A DNA stretch of 39,467 bases from a bacterium (lineage in GTDB: Bacteria > RBG-13-66-14 > B26-G2 > WVWN01): contig DATKVX010000017.1 of assembly GCA_035529855.1 (NCBI GenBank), positions 1 through 39,467 on the forward strand, written 5' to 3'. Positions 28,084 through 39,467 of this stretch are shown in pieces. Below the pieces are notes generated by a model. That model saw nothing but the letters and a program-made list of their open reading frames with translations, searched no databases and was not told where the DNA came from. Both the position numbers and the translations under genes were made by a program. Position 1 is the first letter of the stretch. Every line of letters starts with the position of its first letter.

Positions 28084-31000
28084 TTAAAGTTTCGCTTCTT
28101 CCCGGAAGCGGGCCACGCGGTCCAACCAATACTGCCAATCGTGTTTACTAAATACGCGTTCGGCCGACTCGAGGTAATGGGCGGCGTCGTCGCGGCGGCC
28201 CGACGCGAAGCAAGCCTGCGCCAAACGGAAGGCGGCGCGCGGCCAGTGCAAGAAATCGCGGCCGTCGGTCTGGCGCATTACCCAGTCGAATTCGGCCGCC
28301 GACCCGGCCGCGTCCCCCAGAAATAATTTAAGCTCGCCGAGCCGCAAGCGGCCCTCGTGTACCTCTTCGGCCTTCTTCGCCGCGGCCACCGCCGCCGCCA
28401 CTTCTTCCACCATCTCGGCCGCGCGCCCGGCATCCCGCCGCGCCAGCGCCAAATCGGCGTCGAGGTTCGCCCGGGCGAGGGCGGCGGTCTCCCGGGACGG
28501 CGGCTCGAGCGCGAAGACCGCCCGGTAGTGGCGACGGAACTCGTCGGAGTCGTACGCGCCGGCGTCCACCTCTACGCGCGCTCCCAATAATTCGGCGTAA
28601 AATTTATGCGCCGCCGACCCGATCTGAGCGGCCGCCTCCAAAGCCGCCGCTGCGTGTTCGCGCGCCGCGTCCCACCGGCCCCGGCAACGTTCGAGCTCGC
28701 CTACGTTAATATGTGCCCCGGATAAGATTTCGTAGCTGGAGATATCCTCGGCCAACGCCACCGCTTCCCGGCCGTATTCCTCGGCCTTCGAAGGCTCGAG
28801 GTACAGGTAATAAGCTATCAAATTGCAGACCGCGGCTGCCTCGGTCCGGCGGGTGCCGATGCGCCGCGTTATCTCCAGCGCCCGTTCGGCGAAATCCACC
28901 GCGTCGTGATAACGCCCTAAAAGGTAGTCGGCGAAGCCCAAGTTAGTTAAAGCGATGGCCTGCCCCGGTAGATCTCCGGCCTGTTGCCAAATATATAGGC
29001 CGTCGTGGAAATACTCCAGCGCTCGCTCCGGTTCGTCGGCGTTCAAATAATCGGACCCTATAATATTGTAACAATACGCGACGGCTACGTCGTCGCCGGC
29101 CTCGGTGAAACGCGCTAACGCTTCGGCTATAGCCCGACGGCGCGCGCCGTCTTCGCCCAAACACGCTAAAACCTTTACCAAAGATTGGAGCGTCTTCCCT
29201 TCCAGAAGGGGTTCGTTCAAAGCGTTATAGATATTTCGCGCGTCCTCCAAGTACAGCCGTGCTTCACGATTCTCCCCCAATTCGCTATAAGCTTTACCGG
29301 CCAGGCACAATAGCTTCGCCCTCGCGACCGACGTCTCGGCATACTTCAACTCTTCCTCGGCGAGCTCGAGAGCACGCTTCGGGTCGGCGTAGTCCAGAAG
29401 ACAAGAAGACAACTTCTCGATTAATTCCACTCTTAAACCGGGGTCTACCGGGCCCACGTCACGGACGCACTCGAACGCGCGTTGGTAATGCGATATCGCC
29501 TCCAAAAGCGCGTAAACCGCCGCCGCCCGGTCCCCCGCCGCCTTGAGATGCTCGACCGCGTCCCGATTTCGTCCGGCCTCCAAAAGGTAGTGTGCCACCA
29601 TTCCCGGTTCGGTACCCCTCTTTTCGGCCGCGCGAGCGATCGCGGAAAAAATCGCGCTTCGCTCCTTCTTAATTAAAGATTCGTACAAAACCTCTCCCGT
29701 TACGTCGTGAGCGAACGAGAACCTCCCTCCCGAAACCGTCAGGACCCCGACGCGCTCGAGCTCGGCGATTAACTCGTCGACGACCTCGCGGATTTCAGCG
29801 GGCGCTACGTCGCGCACCAACGCGAGCTCGCCCTCCAACCCTACGCACGACGCTATCTTCGCTACTTTCGACGCCTCCGGGCTCAACCTGTCCGCGCGCG
29901 CCCGGGCCGCCGCCTTAACCGACGCCGGCGGCTTGAAAGCCTCCCCCGCCCCCCGGGTCAAAACCGCCGCCGCGACTTCCTCGCAGTACAAAGGGTTACC
30001 CCTCGCCCACGTAATAATGCGCCGCAGCAATTCCGGCGCGAGGCGCTCGCGGGGGATTAGAGCGCGGACCAGCTCTGCGACGTCGCCGTCCGCCAACGGC
30101 GGCAACTCGACGACGTCCGCGGTAACGCGCCGCAGAAGCTCCGGCTCCCGCGCCGTTACGATTAACAATAACCGAAGCTTATTTACGCGAGAGGCGAAGC
30201 GCGAGAGGAGCAGGAAATCCGCGTTCGACGCCCATTGCGCGTCCTCGAGTATTAACACCGCCGGCCCTCTCGCGGCCACGTCGGCCCAAACGGTTTCGAA
30301 TAACTCGTAAAGCCGTTCGAACCGCGCGACGCCCCTAAGTTGTTCGGTAATAGGGGTTTCGAGGGGGTGCTGCTCTAAAACCGCGCTCAAGAGCGGCGCC
30401 GCCTCGAGCAACTCCGGCTTCCCGGCGCGGAGGAGGTCCTCGGCCCGCTCGAGATAGCTCGCGCCGGAGAAGTGCGCCAGCGCATCGCTCAACGGGCTTC
30501 GGAACGCCGCGTACGAAACCTCGACCGTTACCGGTAAACATTTGCCGACGAAAACGCGTACGTCTTCCAGGCCCGCCAAAGCCTCCGTCACGAGGCGCGT
30601 TTTGCCTATCCCCGGGCCGCCGGAAATACCGACCGCCGCGCCCCGCCCCGCGCGGAGGTCTTCCAACGTACGACGCAACCTCAGCAATTCCCCGTCCCGA
30701 CCGACGAACACCTTACGCGACGGCGCGACTCCCGCAAACGAATCGGCGAACCCGTCGACGATAAAACCGGTTTCGGCAAGGCCGTCGGGGGTAGTAGCGC
30801 CGAGCGATACCGGCTTCACCGTGAATAACCGCCGCACTTGGTCCGCCGCCGCGGCGCTTAATAAAACCGTATTAGGCCGGGCGTTGTTTCGTAAGCGGGC
30901 GGCGTTTTCGACGGTCGAACCCAGGGCCACGTAATCGGCCGCGGCGACGTTGGCCCCCACCCGGACCACGCCGAAATCGACCGCGAACCTGGTCGCGACG

Positions 31001-31392
31001 TTTTGGCCCGACGCGGCGTGCAACCGCTTCGAGACGTCGGCTATGCAGTCGCGCGACGCAAAGGCGGCGCGTACGGCCAGCTCCACTTCCCGCTCCCTCG
31101 CTACCGGCGCGCCGAAAATCGCCGTTAGGCCGGCGGTATACCTGTTAATCACCGTACCCCCGTGCGCCGTACACGCGTCGTCGAGGGCCGCCATACATTC
31201 GGCTACGTAATCGGAAACCTGCGCCGTAGGCATACTGCCCACGAGCTTCGCCAACCCCTGCACGTCGCCCGCCAGGCATGCTACCTCGCGCAACTCGACG
31301 CCGTAACCGCCGGCCCGACCGACCGGCGCGCCGCAAACGGGACAGAAGTTAGCGTCGGCCCTTACCGTCGCGTGGCAAGATGGACATAGCAT
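28084..31392 (-). CDS. Zinc ribbon - degenerate class III cyclase - AAA/STAND ATPase - TPR regulator-like protein
   Basis: 1102 residues. A zinc ribbon (CPSC 3-6, CPVC 17-20), then a class III nucleotidyl cyclase fold (about 33-205), a STAND-type ATPase (about 228-560; Walker A GGPGIGKT with K264, Walker B VLILEDAQW with E383/D384), and a long TPR-type helical array (about 620-1090). The cyclase domain keeps the first metal Asp (D43 in AGDVQG) and D153, but where active enzymes read K-F-L-G-D-G it has N-R-Y-T-A-G (N83, A87), and the transition-state Asn of V-N-x-A-A-R is Glu (E162). It is therefore probably inactive as a cyclase and may act as a nucleotide or protein sensor controlling the ATPase. 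The domain order is common in MalT/LuxR-like signalling ATPases, without a DNA-binding domain here. ATG 31392, 18 bases after the formiminotransferase gene. Confidence 0.9.
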   Translation of the reverse strand: MLCPSCHATVRADANFCPVCGAPVGRAGGYGVELREVACLAGDVQGLAKLVGSMPTAQVSDYVAECMAALDDACTAHGGTVINRYTAGLTAIFGAPVAREREVELAVRAAFASRDCIADVSKRLHAASGQNVATRFAVDFGVVRVGANVAAADYVALGSTVENAARLRNNARPNTVLLSAAAADQVRRLFTVKPVSLGATTPDGLAETGFIVDGFADSFAGVAPSRKVFVGRDGELLRLRRTLEDLRAGRGAAVGISGGPGIGKTRLVTEALAGLEDVRVFVGKCLPVTVEVSYAAFRSPLSDALAHFSGASYLERAEDLLRAGKPELLEAAPLLSAVLEQHPLETPITEQLRGVARFERLYELFETVWADVAARGPAVLILEDAQWASNADFLLLSRFASRVNKLRLLLIVTAREPELLRRVTADVVELPPLADGDVAELVRALIPRERLAPELLRRIITWARGNPLYCEEVAAAVLTRGAGEAFKPPASVKAAARARADRLSPEASKVAKIASCVGLEGELALVRDVAPAEIREVVDELIAELERVGVLTVSGGRFSFAHDVTGEVLYESLIKKERSAIFSAIARAAEKRGTEPGMVAHYLLEAGRNRDAVEHLKAAGDRAAAVYALLEAISHYQRAFECVRDVGPVDPGLRVELIEKLSSCLLDYADPKRALELAEEELKYAETSVARAKLLCLAGKAYSELGENREARLYLEDARNIYNALNEPLLEGKTLQSLVKVLACLGEDGARRRAIAEALARFTEAGDDVAVAYCYNIIGSDYLNADEPERALEYFHDGLYIWQQAGDLPGQAIALTNLGFADYLLGRYHDAVDFAERALEITRRIGTRRTEAAAVCNLIAYYLYLEPSKAEEYGREAVALAEDISSYEILSGAHINVGELERCRGRWDAAREHAAAALEAAAQIGSAAHKFYAELLGARVEVDAGAYDSDEFRRHYRAVFALEPPSRETAALARANLDADLALARRDAGRAAEMVEEVAAAVAAAKKAEEVHEGRLRLGELKLFLGDAAGSAAEFDWVMRQTDGRDFLHWPRAAFRLAQACFASGRRDDAAHYLESAERVFSKHDWQYWLDRVARFREEAKL

Positions 31393-33132: not shown

Positions 33133-33552
33133 CTAGTCGCCGACGACGGTTACCGTGATTTCCCGGCGCCGTTTTTTATTGTCGAAGTCAATGAAGACCA
33201 CCTGTTGCCACGTACCCAACGACGGCGCGCCGCCCGCGACCGGAAACGCGAACGTGGGCCCGAGGAGCGACGAGCGGACATGCGAGTGGCCGTTGCCGTC
33301 GCCCCAGCGCTCGTCGTGGCCGTATCGCTCGCCCTTGGGAGCGAACTTCTCGAAAAGCCTTTTAATGTCCGATACCAACCCGGGCTCGTATTCGACGGTC
33401 GTAATGCCGACGGTCGAGCCGGCCGACGCTACCAGCCCTATACCATCCTTCACGCCCGAGGCCGCGACCAACCGCACCACCTCGGCCGTAACGTCGTGGA
33501 TGTCGGCATCGCCCTTACACGAGAGCTCGAACGAATCGCGGTAAACGGTCAT
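33133..33552 (-). CDS. YjbQ family protein (UPF0047, secondary thiamin-phosphate synthase type)
   Basis: 139 residues, full length. GNGHSHVRSSLLGPTFAFPV and LGTWQQVVFIDFDNKKRRREITVTVV are the family signature. Members form compact beta-rich trimers, and some show weak thiamin-phosphate synthase activity, so the name is provisional. ATG 33552 overlaps the bioY stop (ATGA), and its own stop is 17 bases before the creatininase-family start. No thiamin genes are adjacent. Confidence 0.93.
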   Translation of the reverse strand: MTVYRDSFELSCKGDADIHDVTAEVVRLVAASGVKDGIGLVASAGSTVGITTVEYEPGLVSDIKRLFEKFAPKGERYGHDERWGDGNGHSHVRSSLLGPTFAFPVAGGAPSLGTWQQVVFIDFDNKKRRREITVTVVGD

Positions 33553-34127
33553 ACGGCCCCCTTCGGAAGGAATAAACGCTTAAACGCCGCGGCCGCCGGC
33601 CCGAATGAAACCACCGCCAGGAAGTACTTCGCCGCGGCCCCGAATAAGAACGGCGTGCAGCCGAGCGCGAACGCTCGGCGCCACTCGAGGTGTAATATCA
33701 CAACCAGATGCCCCAGGCCGCACGCGTATATGGCGACCAGCGATAATAGAAAGCAAGCCGCCCGGATGTGCCACGGCCGGCGATGCGCCAACCCCGCGAT
33801 CGCCGCCCCGGCGACGAACCCGATTAAATAGCCGGCCGTCGGCCCGGCGATTACCGCCCACCCGGCGCCGCCGGCAAAGAAAGGCGCGCCCATTACGCCG
33901 GCGGCGATGTACGCCAATACCGCAGCGATACCCCACCGCACGCCGAGCGCGGCGCCCGCTATCATTACGACGAACGTTTGCATGGTCACCGGTACGGGCG
34001 TAAAAGGAAGCGGCACCCTAACAGCCGCCGACAAGCCCAGCGCCGCGACGAAAACCAACGCCCCGGCGAGTTTCGACATCCACCCGTATTCCGCCGCCCG
34101 CGACGCAACGCATACACGAGATTTCAT
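33549..34127 (-). CDS. bioY: BioY biotin transporter S component
   Basis: 192 residues with about six membrane helices. The family hallmarks VPLPFTPVPVTMQTFVVMIAGAALG and GPTAGYLIGFVAGA are clear. It binds biotin at the membrane and works alone or with an ECF energising module; no ecfA/ecfT is near. ATG 34127 has GGAGGAG 10 bases upstream, located inside the end of the SelA-like gene 7 bases away; an internal ATG 34079 is a less likely alternative. Its stop overlaps yjbQ. Confidence 0.95.
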   Translation of the reverse strand: MKSRVCVASRAAEYGWMSKLAGALVFVAALGLSAAVRVPLPFTPVPVTMQTFVVMIAGAALGVRWGIAAVLAYIAAGVMGAPFFAGGAGWAVIAGPTAGYLIGFVAGAAIAGLAHRRPWHIRAACFLLSLVAIYACGLGHLVVILHLEWRRAFALGCTPFLFGAAAKYFLAVVSFGPAAAAFKRLFLPKGAV

Positions 34128-34134
34128 ACTAATT

Positions 34135-35070
34135 TTACTCCTCCGTTAAAAACCGCCAGAGGGCCGCCGCGGCCTCTTCGTACAAAGCCGCGTCGCCGGC
34201 CGAACCGACCGAACCAGGAACTTTTACGAATACCAAGTCATAAGGCCGCGCTTCCCGCGGCGTCGCGAATACGACGACGTCGCCCGCCAACCGCCGCGGC
34301 GCGCCGCGTTCGTCGAAGAGCGCGTCGTCGGCCGATATATTCACGAAAGTTACGCCGGCCGCAGCAGCAGCCGCGGCCAATTCCTCGGCTTCGGGCGAAG
34401 CCACGAACCCCTCCATCGCGAAATCGCCGGCCCGGCACGCCACGACGGCGTCGACGCCCGCGAATTTATCCTCGTAATCCGCCAATTTAACTTTATTGGT
34501 CGTCCCAACCTCGGCGACGCTAACGCCGTCGAGGTAGTCAAAAAACGTCGCGCCGGACCGGAACGTCAATATGTCTCGCGTCGCAACGACCGCGGTAGCA
34601 ACGTTCGGCGCCACGTCTCGCACGCGCGCTTTGCCGCCGGCGCAGACGGCGACGCTCGCGTCGTCGCCGGCGACGTACGCCCACATCGCCGCGGCGTCTT
34701 GCCGGGAAGCGATGGACGCCGCGAACGCCGCCGTACCCTCTACGGAAGCCGCGCCGCCGGCCTTCGTTAACGTCGTTATGGCGCGTTTGACGAGGAATTT
34801 TACCAGCTCGGCCGGGAGCGCCGGCGCGCCGGGGAGGCCTTCCCACGCCTCGAGGCAAGCGTTAACCGACGGCGGCCTGGCGCCGACCGTCACCGTAAAA
34901 TAGGCCGCGCCGTCGGCCGGCGTACCTTTCAGGCCGACGCGCTGACCCCACGCGTCCACGACGTATATAGCGCCCTCGGCCGCGGCCCGCCTTTGCCCTT
35001 CGGACAATGCGCTCTCGACGGGCGCGCCGGCCCGGACCCGTAGCTCTTTGCCGTCGACGAATACCTTCAT
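34135..35070 (-). CDS. SelA-fold protein lacking PLP residues, with N-terminal beta-grasp-like domain
   Basis: 311 residues. Residues 1-62 (MKVFVDGKELRVRAGAPVESAL ... YFTVTV, given in part) look like a small beta-grasp/ThiS-like domain without cysteines or a C-terminal Gly-Gly. Residues about 150-290 align by eye with the core of selenocysteine synthase SelA: EVGTTNKVKLADYED (187-201) against EVGTTNRTHxxDY, then a match to its next strand-helix unit. But the Schiff-base lysine segment FSGDKLLGG becomes FATPREARP (R272 where Lys belongs), and the PLP-binding Asp of VTDLGSG is Ile in VNISADD. It also lacks about 150 N-terminal residues of SelA. It is probably not a PLP enzyme. ATG 35070 overlaps the nucleotidase stop (ATGA). 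Function unknown. Confidence 0.75.
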   Translation of the reverse strand: MKVFVDGKELRVRAGAPVESALSEGQRRAAAEGAIYVVDAWGQRVGLKGTPADGAAYFTVTVGARPPSVNACLEAWEGLPGAPALPAELVKFLVKRAITTLTKAGGAASVEGTAAFAASIASRQDAAAMWAYVAGDDASVAVCAGGKARVRDVAPNVATAVVATRDILTFRSGATFFDYLDGVSVAEVGTTNKVKLADYEDKFAGVDAVVACRAGDFAMEGFVASPEAEELAAAAAAAGVTFVNISADDALFDERGAPRRLAGDVVVFATPREARPYDLVFVKVPGSVGSAGDAALYEEAAAALWRFLTEE

Positions 35071-36560
35071 TCTCCTACGAACTCGATCCTCCCAGCCGGC
35101 TGTTCCGGGACGGCCCGGCCTTCGCGCAGGCCGGAGGCGACGACGTCGTAGAGGACGAGGCCGGTTTTATATGCCGGCTCGAGCGACGCAAACATCGCGT
35201 AACCGTCGCCGCCCTCGGCGAGGAAGTCCGGCATCGCGACCTTATAGGTAACGCCGTCGTCGAGCGGCGCCCCGCCCACGTTCACGGCCGCGAGTATGTT
35301 ATCCGGGCCGATGGCGTATTCACAACCCGAGACCTGCAGGAAGCCTCCTTCGCCCACCTTCTCCCGGGCGCACAACTCGAAAGCCCGGCGCAACGTCGCG
35401 CCGGGAACGTCGAGGACGACGACCTCGTTGCCGAACGGGAGCGCGGTCAGGACGTCGCCCAACGTAATCTCGCCCGGGCCCAGGTCCGCGCGGACGCCGC
35501 CGCCGTTCACCAGCGCCGCGTCCGCCCCCGTCGCCTCGCGCACCAGGTCCGCCACGAAGTCGCCGAAGTTGGTCTCTTTCTCGGTAACCGCCTTACGGTT
35601 TAGGACGGTATCTACGGTGCCGACGACGACGTCGAGCTTCTCCGAAAGGCCCGTTTTATATTGGTCAATAACGGCCGCCACCGCTTCATTTTCCGGAGTA
35701 GAGGCGGTGACGGGCAGCAACGCGTAACCTTTAACGGCGATTCCCCCGTCCACGATTTCCAAATCCATACGGCCCAAGTACATCCCGTACTCGTACGCGG
35801 AACAAATTATCGTATCCCGCTTAGTTACCATTTCTCCTAAATGAGTATGCGTATGGCCGCTGACTACTACGTCCAACTCGGGGACGTCGCCGGCGAGGGC
35901 GAGGTCGTTCTCGAAGCCGAGGTGCGTAAGGGCCACTATCGCGTCGGCGTCTTCGCCGTACTCCCCTATCACGGCCTTGGCCGTCGCCGCCGGGTCGGCG
36001 AACTCCAGGCCGACGACGTTGCGCGGCGCCGTCGTGATGGGCGTCTCGGGCGTGGTCAGGCCGATTACGAGGACCCTTTTGTCGCCCGCCTCGAGCCACA
36101 CGAACCCTTTCGTGAAGGCGCCGTCCCCGGCCGTACCGGTTACCGTTACGTTGGCGCTAATGACGAGGAAATCGGCCAACTCCATAAGGTCCCGTAGGTT
36201 CTCCCGGCCGTAGTCGAACTCGTGGTTGCCGAGACACATCGCGCTCACGGCCATTTCGTTCAGGCACGTGAACTCGACCTCGCCGCGGTAGACCGTCGAG
36301 TACGGCGTCCCCTGCACCATATCGCCGGCGACCAAGAGGAACGTCGGCGCGCCGGCGGCCTCGTTTTCGCCGCGGACTTCGTCGGCCAGGCCGGCGAGAC
36401 GCGCCAGGCCGCCCACCTCTCCTTCCGTTCCCGGGACCTCGAACGGCTCGAGGTGCGCGTGGAAGTCGTTGAAGAATAGAATTGTGAACGGTTGGCCGGC
36501 CCAGGAGACGCCCGCGCAAATCAGGAAAATTAAAACAGCTTGTGCGATCTTAACGCGCAT
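35067..36560 (-). CDS. Periplasmic 5'-nucleotidase / UshA-type metallophosphatase
   Basis: 497 residues. Signal peptide (about 1-21, cut after GVSWA), metallophosphoesterase domain (about 24-245) with all metal motifs: FFNDFHAHLEP, AGDMVQGTPYS, LGNHEFDYG, ALTHLGFEND, VSGHTHTHL; then the 5'-nucleotidase C-terminal substrate domain (about 300-490; GDVLTALPFGNEVVVLDVPG and FLAEGGDGYAMF). It dephosphorylates nucleotides or related sugar esters outside the cytoplasm. First recognisable gene of the nine-gene operon; it overlaps the SelA-like gene by ATGA. It follows the giant repeat gene by 34 bases, so transcription may enter from there. Confidence 0.95.
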   Translation of the reverse strand: MRVKIAQAVLIFLICAGVSWAGQPFTILFFNDFHAHLEPFEVPGTEGEVGGLARLAGLADEVRGENEAAGAPTFLLVAGDMVQGTPYSTVYRGEVEFTCLNEMAVSAMCLGNHEFDYGRENLRDLMELADFLVISANVTVTGTAGDGAFTKGFVWLEAGDKRVLVIGLTTPETPITTAPRNVVGLEFADPAATAKAVIGEYGEDADAIVALTHLGFENDLALAGDVPELDVVVSGHTHTHLGEMVTKRDTIICSAYEYGMYLGRMDLEIVDGGIAVKGYALLPVTASTPENEAVAAVIDQYKTGLSEKLDVVVGTVDTVLNRKAVTEKETNFGDFVADLVREATGADAALVNGGGVRADLGPGEITLGDVLTALPFGNEVVVLDVPGATLRRAFELCAREKVGEGGFLQVSGCEYAIGPDNILAAVNVGGAPLDDGVTYKVAMPDFLAEGGDGYAMFASLEPAYKTGLVLYDVVASGLREGRAVPEQPAGRIEFVGE

Positions 36561-36594: not shown

Positions 36595-39467
36595 TTAATC
36601 GCCTTTCTTTACGACCGAAACCAAATCGCCGTTAACGTTATAAGTCCGCTCTTCAATTACCGAACCTTGGTCGTCATAACCCCATTCATAACGGTGTATA
36701 CCGTGGCCGTCGAAGACGGGTTCGTCGCCCGGGCCGAAGTAACTTTCGGACGCTTCATTATGGCCCCAACGGTCGTACGTCCATTCGTACCGGTGTATCC
36801 CCTCGGCGTCGCGGGCCGGCCCTTCGACGGCCCAAAGGCTCTGCGTTACCTTCCTGCGCCCTTCGTTGTACGCCCACTCCTGGCGATGGACGCCGTCCTT
36901 ATTGACGGCGGGATTCCCTTCCCCGTCGTAATAACTCTCGCTCACTTTAACGTAATCGCCGTCGTATTCGTACTTGTAGAAGTGTACGCCGTACTCGTCG
37001 GCGACCGGCTCGCCGCCGGGGCCCCAATATCTCTCCGACAATAACACGTCGCGGTCGTATTCGCGCTCGTAGCGGTGAATACCTTTTTCATCCGCCGTGG
37101 GTTCGCCGTCGGCGCCGAAGAACGCCTCCGACGTACAATTCCCCCAGTTGTCATGCCCCTGCGCATAACGCGCGATACCCCTCTTATCGGCCCGCAACTT
37201 CCCGTCGGGCCCGTAATAAGTACGGCCTATTCCGCGGCCGTACTCATCGTAATTTAATTCGTAAAAATGGATACCATTTTCGCCCGCAACGGGTTCGCCG
37301 CTAACGCCGAAGTACCTCTCGCCGATGAAAAGGCCCCTATCGTCGATTACGGTTTCGTACCGGTGCGTGCCGACGCTATTCGTTACCGGCTTCCCGTCGA
37401 CCCCGAAATAGCTCTCGGCTACGGGGTTTCCCCTATCGTTGAATTCGTATTGCTTTCTATGTGTTCCTTCCCACGGAGCGACCGGCTCGCCGTCCACGCC
37501 GAAATAACTCTCCGCGGCCTTGTTGCCCTTAACGTCGTACGTATACTCCGTACGGTGAAGGCCGTCTTCGCTCGCCGCGGGCTTCCCTTCGACGTCGAAA
37601 TAAGCCCTTGCTATCTCCCTGCCCCGTTCGTCGTAGAATACTTCCTCTTTATGAACGTCGCCGCGGTCCGGCATCGGTACGGGGCGTCCGGCCTCGTCAA
37701 CGGCGTAAAAAGATTCTTCCTTACCCTCGGGAGTTACGGTACTTACGAAATTCGGCTGTCCCCCGGGTAACACGGCCTCGCCGTCGACGCCGTAGTACCT
37801 CCGAAAAGAAGCCCCCGTTTCCGAGTCGTAACCTCTCTCGCAACGGTGTACGCCGGCGGCGTCGTTTACCGGCTCGCCGTCGGGACCGAAATAGCTTTCG
37901 GACGTAAGACGGCCCTGCTCGTCGTACGAGAACTCGGTGCGATGGATATTACTCCCGAATTCCGGGGTCGGTACCGGTCGGCGGCCAAAAAGACTTACCT
38001 CGCGGAAAATATGATTATCCTTATCGACGGCCGGTTTACGGTCAACCCCGAATATGCTAAACGACGACATATTACCGTCGGCGTCGTACTCGTACTCGTA
38101 TCGGTGAACGCCGTCCGGGTCCGCAACCGGTTCCCCATTGACGCCGAAGTAGCTTTGGGAAGTCTTGTTCCCTCGGGCGTCGTACGTACACTCAAGGCGG
38201 TGCCAATAAAGAGAGGTAACGGTTTCGCCTTCTTTACCGAAGTAACTCACCAAAAGCTCGTTGCCCCTCGCGTCGTACTCCCGCCGCACCTCGTACCACA
38301 CGCCGTCCCGAGCCAAGGGCGCGCCGTCGACGCCGAATACCCGGTCGGACGTCACGTTCCCGTACTCGTCATAAGTGCACTCGTACTTGTGGACGCCGCC
38401 AAAGCGCGCTACCGGTTCGCCGCCGGCGCCGAAATAACTTGCCGACGTCGTCCTACCGTTTTCGTCGAAAACGTACTTATATTCGTGTATTCCCTCGCGG
38501 TTTTCGACCGGCTCCCCGGACACCCCGAAATACCGCAAAGGCTTTTTACCTTGGCCGCCGATATCAATCCATTCAAACCGGTGGACGTCGCCCCCCCTTT
38601 CTTGAGTAATGGGTTCGCCGTTCACGCCGAAATAACTCTCCGTCGTGCGGCCGCCGTCGCCGTACGTCCACTCATATTTATGGACGCCACTAATATCGAG
38701 ACCCGGGCCGCCGTCCGGGCCCAAATAACTTTCGTACACCCTCCGCCCCTCGTCGTCGAAGGTACGTTCGTAGCCGTATACGCCGTTGCTGCCGCGAGTA
38801 AGCTTCCCGTCCGCGCCGTAAAAACGCTCGGAAACGGTATTCCTTCTGTCGTTTTCGACCCATTCCCGCTTATGGACGCCCTCTCCGTCCGTGACCGGTT
38901 CGCCGTCTTTGCCGAAATTGCTTTTCGTCCTCTTTATCCCCGCGGCCGTTTTTTCTTCGTAGAATTCGAAGGCGTATACGCCGCCGTCCGGTACGAGGTT
39001 CCCGTCAACGTCGTAGCGTCGGTACATTGTACCGCCGCTTGGCCCCGGGTCGCGTTCCTCCTTATGCCAACCCCATTTGTCATTGACCCGCTCACCCTTC
39101 ACGCCGAAATGACCTTCGTAAACCCGCTCTCCCTTATCGTCGTAACGGTACTTCGTGCAGTGGGCTCCGTCCACGGCGACCGGCTCGCCGTCGACGCCGA
39201 AATACGCCGACGACGTTTCGTTACCGTCGGCATCGTACGTAAACTCTAATCGGGAGTACCGACGGCCGTAGAGGACCGGTTTGCCGTCGACGCCGAAGTT
39301 GCTCTCGGACGTTTTATTGCCGGCGGCGTCGTACTTCCATTCCCTCTTATGAACCGAATCCCACGCCGCCGCCTCGCCGCCAAGGCCCCAACGCACTTCG
39401 GCTGTTCTATTTCCCCGGCCGTCGTACGCGTACTCCACCAGGTGAACGCCGGTTTCCGTAATCGCTT
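36595..39467 (-). CDS. Giant tandem-repeat protein, about 32-residue repeats, N-terminal part outside the window
   Basis: At least 957 residues; the frame stays open to the window end (reading ITETGVHLVEYAYDGRGN), so the gene starts further on. The whole visible part is repeats of about 32 residues with consensus GVHRYEYTYDExGNxTSESYFGVDGEPVxxxx: I count about 29-30 units. Strongest positions are H-R-Y-E, Y-D-x-x-G-N, S-Y-F-G and D-G-E-P-V. Two units carry a GR(R)PVPxP variant, and one (near 37940-38010) is shortened. The pattern recalls RHS/YD and MORN-like beta repeats, but the period is longer than the YD repeat and I do not recognise the family. No signal peptide, toxin or protease domain is visible at the C-terminal end, which stops shortly after the last repeat (VVKKGD). 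Confidence 0.85.
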   Translation of the reverse strand, partial: AITETGVHLVEYAYDGRGNRTAEVRWGLGGEAAAWDSVHKREWKYDAAGNKTSESNFGVDGKPVLYGRRYSRLEFTYDADGNETSSAYFGVDGEPVAVDGAHCTKYRYDDKGERVYEGHFGVKGERVNDKWGWHKEERDPGPSGGTMYRRYDVDGNLVPDGGVYAFEFYEEKTAAGIKRTKSNFGKDGEPVTDGEGVHKREWVENDRRNTVSERFYGADGKLTRGSNGVYGYERTFDDEGRRVYESYLGPDGGPGLDISGVHKYEWTYGDGGRTTESYFGVNGEPITQERGGDVHRFEWIDIGGQGKKPLRYFGVSGEPVENREGIHEYKYVFDENGRTTSASYFGAGGEPVARFGGVHKYECTYDEYGNVTSDRVFGVDGAPLARDGVWYEVRREYDARGNELLVSYFGKEGETVTSLYWHRLECTYDARGNKTSQSYFGVNGEPVADPDGVHRYEYEYDADGNMSSFSIFGVDRKPAVDKDNHIFREVSLFGRRPVPTPEFGSNIHRTEFSYDEQGRLTSESYFGPDGEPVNDAAGVHRCERGYDSETGASFRRYYGVDGEAVLPGGQPNFVSTVTPEGKEESFYAVDEAGRPVPMPDRGDVHKEEVFYDERGREIARAYFDVEGKPAASEDGLHRTEYTYDVKGNKAAESYFGVDGEPVAPWEGTHRKQYEFNDRGNPVAESYFGVDGKPVTNSVGTHRYETVIDDRGLFIGERYFGVSGEPVAGENGIHFYELNYDEYGRGIGRTYYGPDGKLRADKRGIARYAQGHDNWGNCTSEAFFGADGEPTADEKGIHRYEREYDRDVLLSERYWGPGGEPVADEYGVHFYKYEYDGDYVKVSESYYDGEGNPAVNKDGVHRQEWAYNEGRRKVTQSLWAVEGPARDAEGIHRYEWTYDRWGHNEASESYFGPGDEPVFDGHGIHRYEWGYDDQGSVIEERTYNVNGDLVSVVKKGD
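36640..39467. repeat. Tandem DNA repeat of about 96 bases encoding the 32-residue units
   Basis: On the plus strand the motif GG(T/C)TCGCCGTCGACGCCGAA(A/G)TA and close variants recur about every 96 bases through the gene. Units have diverged at synonymous and non-synonymous sites, so this is an old array with protein-level constraint, not recent expansion. Confidence 0.8.

Follow-up and report, generated by a model that had tools for sequence, protein, structure and literature searches.

We analysed a stretch of 39,467 nucleotides (contig DATKVX010000017.1 of assembly GCA_035529855.1, as a whole called the window below) from a bacterium of the uncultured phylum RBG-13-66-14, focusing on a gene whose product is related to the selenocysteine (Sec) synthase SelA. 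The open reading frame (ORF) of this gene is intact and begins with an ATG codon, which overlaps the stop codon of an upstream 5'-nucleotidase gene as ATGA. We refer to the product as pseudo-SelA, as it appears to be a SelA paralogue whose pyridoxal phosphate (PLP) chemistry is lost. Comparisons were made across 386 genomes, 14 from the same phylum and 372 others, coded G000 and so on; SelA residues are numbered as in the Aquifex aeolicus protein. The parts of the gene are as follows.

34135-35070, reverse strand: whole gene of the PLP-dead SelA paralogue (pseudo-SelA), 311 amino acids, stop codon counted in (ORF; Pfam SelA; hhalign)
34882-35070, reverse strand: extra N-terminal domain, residues 1-63, in families f1-f2 only (alignment; AlphaFold secondary structure of moderate confidence)
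34741-34878, reverse strand: predicted match to the SelA N-domain, residues 65-110 (hhalign against column shuffles; register common to five relatives; Pfam matches in G005 and G006)
34333-34596, reverse strand: kept SelA core strip, residues 159-246, corresponding to about 158-245 of A. aeolicus SelA (Pfam, phmmer, hhalign and alignment)
34474-34512, reverse strand: dimer-dimer interface segment EVGTTNKVKLADY, with the equivalents of E188 and T192, which the genome's catalytic SelA no longer has
34255-34257, reverse strand: codon of R272, aligned with the PLP-binding lysine (K285 of A. aeolicus SelA)
34138-34332, reverse strand: degenerate remainder, residues 247-311, from which the PLP and selenophosphate residues and the C-terminal domain are gone

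The SelA ancestry proposed in the initial annotation was confirmed by several kinds of comparison. The Pfam SelA model (PF03841) matches residues 182-244 of the window protein with 28.2 bits against a cut-off of 22.8, which places the protein in the superfamily, and the selA equivalog model TIGR00474, whose cut-off is 267.9, yields only 28 bits. Among PDB sequences, phmmer ranks A. aeolicus SelA (3w1h/3w1i) first, with a register identical to that of the Pfam match, and a profile built on the window protein aligns with 18 ordinary SelAs over residues 65-255 (hhalign profile-profile comparison, P = 8.8e-16). The AlphaFold model, computed from four input sequences, is of low confidence (predicted local distance difference test, pLDDT, 51), and a Foldseek search of the PDB with this model still places SelA first (E about 6e-4 to 1e-3).

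Also as annotated, both PLP-anchoring residues are lost, the lysine position being occupied by R272 and that of the PLP-binding aspartate by isoleucine. Residues D247, K285, S217, H215, R312 and R315 are all replaced or absent, and none of the PLP residues remains; in the window protein and its close relatives the PLP and selenophosphate residues K285, D247, S217, R86, R312 and R315 are replaced or deleted, so that these proteins do not qualify as SelA enzymes. The alignment of R272 with the lysine holds, but the arginine itself is not a conserved feature, since the position reads R, R, R, P and D in five relatives, and the idea of a conserved Arg272 was discarded. A Schiff-base lysine elsewhere in the protein was likewise rejected: the sole invariant lysine in families f1-f2 is K91, which lies inside the N-domain. 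The window protein is, in addition, without the first half of the PLP domain and without the C-terminal domain. Judged by these alignments, the 311-residue product is a SelA-derived protein without PLP chemistry. The gene is under purifying selection, with a ratio of nonsynonymous to synonymous substitution rates (dN/dS) of 0.19-0.29 among congeners, compared with 0.13-0.16 for the catalytic SelA.

The N-terminal region differs from what had been annotated, namely a beta-grasp-like domain of about 60 residues in place of the SelA N-terminal region. Residues 65-110 (RPPSVNACLEAWEGL...LVKFLVKRAITTL) align with the tRNA-binding N-domain of SelA, and the profile of five relatives over this region scores 32.3 in hhalign, compared with at most 15.0 for 300 column shuffles, a result on which we rejected the replacement. 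Single sequences of the five relatives fall into the same register in 5/5 cases, each score being weak alone. The window sequence by itself stays below the cut-off of the Pfam model Se-cys_synth_N, which is passed by more complete pseudo-SelAs of the same class (26 bits in G005, 36.7 bits in G006). We predict that the SelA N-domain is retained in the window protein at residues 65-110, behind an extra domain of 63 residues. This additional domain is lineage-specific and is predicted, with moderate confidence, to fold as beta-beta-alpha-beta-beta (AlphaFold). Its isolated profile has no match in the PDB or Pfam, and a match to Fer2_4 (E = 0.019) was obtained with the whole window protein as query; as no family matches, its designation as beta-grasp is unproven.

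The organisms of this phylum make selenocysteine and have tRNA-Sec, SelB and SelD. The host genome encodes a tRNA-Sec (66.7 bits, tca anticodon), SelB (above its cut-off), SelD, SelA and at least one selenoprotein, and thus has the Sec-decoding trait. SelD is itself a selenoprotein in all 13 phylum genomes in which it was found, with an in-frame TGA at the catalytic position (GUxxK). The SepSecS route was not seen in the host genome, and PSTK/SepSecS as the route to Sec in the phylum was rejected, the only matches being weak aminotransferase-like ones in G004.

Every genome for which this could be determined has one catalytic SelA (C124 in the host genome). This protein passes TIGR00474, with 394 bits against 268 and a match beginning at model position 73 of 455, and the model is passed in all three genomes tested. 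It keeps K285, D247, D284, R86, R119, S217, S282, R312 and R315 in 12/12 genomes. The residues ahead of the asparagine of the INATG motif number 5-17 in the catalytic SelA (12/12 genomes) versus 73-120 in 18 ordinary SelAs; by alignment, the only catalytic SelA is without the tRNA-binding N-domain in all 12. In G005 selC and selB lie beside the catalytic SelA gene, as does selC in G006. A whole-genome search of the phylum with Pfam Se-cys_synth_N gave above-cut-off matches in the pseudo-SelAs of G005 and G006 only, and no other N-domain. The N-domain binds tRNA-Sec and is present in all Sec-using organisms, its loss marking SelAs of other function (PMC4607533). That the catalytic SelA is without exactly this domain is the key to the function of pseudo-SelA.

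Pseudo-SelA occurs in 13 of the 14 phylum genomes (E <= 4e-51) and in 0/372 others, the next matches being ordinary full-length SelAs at 1e-25. The 12 catalytic SelAs without an N-domain form a distinct set (554-591 bits, frames of 388-450 amino acids, the longest an over-extended frame); among the matches listed, ordinary SelAs score at most 461 bits in frames of at least 436 amino acids, a few partial genes aside. A SelA without the N-domain but with a complete catalytic core is found only in this phylum among the matches listed for the 386 genomes. The short, low-scoring SelA frames of G089, G250, G288 and G306 stay outside this assignment of N-domain loss, and G372, a candidate from outside the phylum, was rejected because its gene is truncated where the contig ends. 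The dead paralogue therefore coincides with the N-domain-less SelA, both having been found in this phylum only (pseudo-SelA in 13/14 genomes, the N-domain-less SelA in 12, among the matches listed).

Neighbouring dimers of A. aeolicus SelA touch through T191, T192, D199, Y220 and residues 218-224, with a hydrogen bond between R174 and D199 of the adjacent dimer (PMC4607533). The depentamerised mutant carries T191Y, T192Y, D199R and Y220P in the sequence of 3wcn (mutant entries 3wcn/3wco); our account of the interface rests on that paper and on the mutant sequences in the PDB. According to the alignment, pseudo-SelA is best conserved in the interface strip. We examined reciprocal loss at positions that are invariant (94% or more) in 33 ordinary SelAs, within the trustworthy block 158-225; this block test replaced position-wise statistics over the whole protein, which were dropped as MAFFT misplaced the N-domain of short pseudo-SelAs. 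In the class to which the host belongs (f1-f4), the catalytic SelA has lost E188 (replaced by P, A or V), T192 (A, V or I) and F224 (R, E, W or Q), and pseudo-SelA keeps E188 in 7/7, T192 in 6/7 (S once) and F224 in 6/7 (Y once). The catalytic SelA of family f5 has lost R163 (V), R174 (A or E), T192 (V) and F224 but not E188; pseudo-SelA there has lost E188 and keeps R163, R174, T192 and F224 in 4/4. All strip residues lost by the catalytic SelA are thus kept by pseudo-SelA, 3/3 in the class and 4/4 in f5, and this reciprocity suggests that the interface has been partitioned between the two proteins. As a separate observation, the inter-dimer pair R174-D199 combines R174 of the catalytic protein with D199 of pseudo-SelA in the class, and R174 of pseudo-SelA with D199 of the catalytic protein in f5, which looks like a reversal of the contact between the two lineages.

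We propose that selenocysteine synthase is here quite probably split into a hetero-oligomer, of which this gene encodes the subunit that binds tRNA and has no catalytic role. The initial annotation had suggested, among other roles, a partner of a true SelA, and this is the role that the evidence favours. The proposed hetero-oligomer draws on indirect genomic evidence, namely co-occurrence, complementary domains and reciprocal residue loss. Somewhat more guardedly, we think it likely that the two subunits are obligate: the catalytic SelA, having lost both the domain that binds tRNA-Sec and the interface loop, would receive them in trans from the dead paralogue, in an arrangement fixed throughout the phylum, with interface residues split differently yet always complementarily in two deep lineages.

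Such a synthase could have arisen if the ancestral selA was duplicated early in the phylum. One copy (C124 in the host genome) would have kept the PLP and selenophosphate site and lost the tRNA-binding N-domain, and the other, the window gene, would have retained this N-domain together with the dimer-dimer interface strip but lost the PLP chemistry. Complementary loss after duplication would leave a catalytic subunit without the N-domain and a holding subunit without the PLP site, which would be obliged to assemble. In SelA, tRNA holding and catalysis already lie on different subunits, and this division would here have been made permanent. The EVGTTNK...DY / GDFxxxGF surface would be where pseudo-SelA docks on its catalytic partner, and the N-domain of pseudo-SelA would hold tRNA-Sec by the D- and T-arms, the acceptor end being presented to the PLP site of the partner. 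As regards stoichiometry, the assembly probably differs from the known decamer, because a ring of five dimers cannot alternate evenly.

Several observations weigh against this proposal. The chance of such an overlap at the level of positions is P = 0.10 in the class and 0.04 in f5, which makes the reciprocal-loss test suggestive, not conclusive. The N-domain match of family f5 is not significant alone (11/300 shuffles are as good). The pseudo-SelA gene is linked to a UshA-like nucleotidase gene and not to sel genes. In f1, f2 and f5 half of the PLP domain is gone together with the C-terminal domain, and pseudo-SelA may therefore not fold like a SelA subunit; the AlphaFold model is poor. The genomes are mostly draft assemblies, and one phylum genome, G013 (88% complete), is the sole exception in having no pseudo-SelA match.

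The lack of linkage to sel genes, the co-occurrence with the Sec machinery and the retained N-domain would also be expected if pseudo-SelA were a tRNA-Sec chaperone or regulator outside the synthase, which would act on supply by binding either SelA or tRNA-Sec, the catalytic SelA having evolved its own way of working without an N-domain. We consider this unlikely, as a mere regulator leaves unexplained why the catalytic SelA lost the N-domain together with otherwise invariant interface residues and why the paralogue keeps exactly those. Less likely again is a function unrelated to Sec synthesis, in which the SelA scaffold was re-used as a binding protein, perhaps tied to the adjacent nucleotidase; the strict gene order with the nucleotidase in the class, the extra N-terminal domain in f1-f2 and the absence of PLP are in line with it, but f5 keeps pseudo-SelA with no nucleotidase neighbour found there, the distribution coincides with the loss of the SelA N-domain, and conservation is highest in the interface strip. 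A decaying copy without function would explain why two large SelA segments and most of the catalytic residues are gone, but is hardly credible for a gene whose frame is intact in relatives, whose dN/dS is that of a constrained protein (0.19-0.29) and which is kept in 13/14 genomes across the phylum.

The split synthase that we favour resembles several known systems in part. Pseudo-SelA shares with the bacterial SelA homodecamer (A. aeolicus 3W1H/3W1K, 8UZW) the core strip 158-245 with its interface residues and the profile match to the N-domain, but differs in that the PLP lysine and aspartate, the selenophosphate arginines, half of the PLP domain and the C-terminal domain are missing, and in its proposed work with a separate catalytic SelA. 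The catalytic partner, in turn, is without the tRNA-binding domain like H. pylori SelA, DgaE (D-glucosaminate-6-phosphate ammonia lyase) and the archaeal MJ0158 family, which are found either where Sec is not decoded or alongside a full-length SelA (PMC4607533); here, however, it is the sole SelA of a Sec-decoding genome, with all catalytic residues kept. The tRNA-binding and catalytic parts are also divided between two polypeptides in the split pyrrolysyl-tRNA synthetase PylSn/PylSc (PMC7609411). The fold of that enzyme is unrelated, and its PylSn is a small domain on its own, where pseudo-SelA is a degenerate full paralogue. Among fold-type-I PLP enzymes there are heterodimers, such as serine palmitoyltransferase LCB1/LCB2, in which one paralogue keeps the lysine and the other has lost it yet is still needed; these likewise pair a dead with a catalytic paralogue, but have no tRNA substrate and no partitioned tRNA-binding domain.

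Neither a split or heteromeric SelA nor Sec synthesis in Coatesbacteria was described in the open-licence literature searched, most subscription papers being outside that search. In descriptions so far, SelA forms a homodecamer that cannot make Sec without its N-domain, and SelAs from which this domain is gone are called 'not for Sec'. A Sec-decoding phylum breaks this rule, a problem apparently solved by a pseudoenzyme partner. If our proposal is true, the rule that selenocysteine synthase is a ring of identical subunits would be overturned, and a naturally heteromeric SelA would allow tRNA holding and catalysis to be studied separately. The annotation of N-domain-less SelAs would need to be corrected, and the system would show a route by which an active site already working across dimers can be split via gene duplication.

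The pseudo-SelA gene is flanked by two genes with which the initial annotation had placed it in an operon.

35067-36560, reverse strand: UshA-like 5'-nucleotidase, upstream of pseudo-SelA, with ATGA overlap
33549-34127, reverse strand: BioY family protein

The association with the nucleotidase recurs, this gene lying upstream of pseudo-SelA in 7/7 genomes of the class; no such neighbour was found in family f5. BioY was rejected as a functional partner because it adjoins pseudo-SelA in only two of five close relatives (G000 and G003). The nucleotidase (35067-36560 in the window; L112:8290-9828; L113:8151-9665) weakly resembles the NCBIfam 'UshA-like (seleno)protein' families. In G005 and G006 it is preceded by a gene common to both (NapH-like ferredoxin in G005), and glyA follows pseudo-SelA. 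The pseudo-SelA gene of G005 (L112:6961-8247) has no ATG, GTG or TTG ahead of the N-domain and apparently uses an ATT start, with a Shine-Dalgarno sequence GGAGGTG ahead of ATTCAAACA.

Elsewhere in the window, an ORF of at least 956 amino acids (36595-39465, reverse strand) runs off the window edge and contains many imperfect, YD-like repeats of about 45 residues of the type GVHRYEWTYDARGNKTSESYFGVDGEPV; no Pfam repeat family recognises these repeats, the single match being a spurious one of 20 residues. A protein of 1102 amino acids (28084-31392, reverse strand) combines a zinc ribbon, an AAA_16 ATPase and TPR repeats with an adenylate/guanylate-cyclase-like domain that scores slightly below its cut-off, and the downstream position of its gene is kept in G001-G004.
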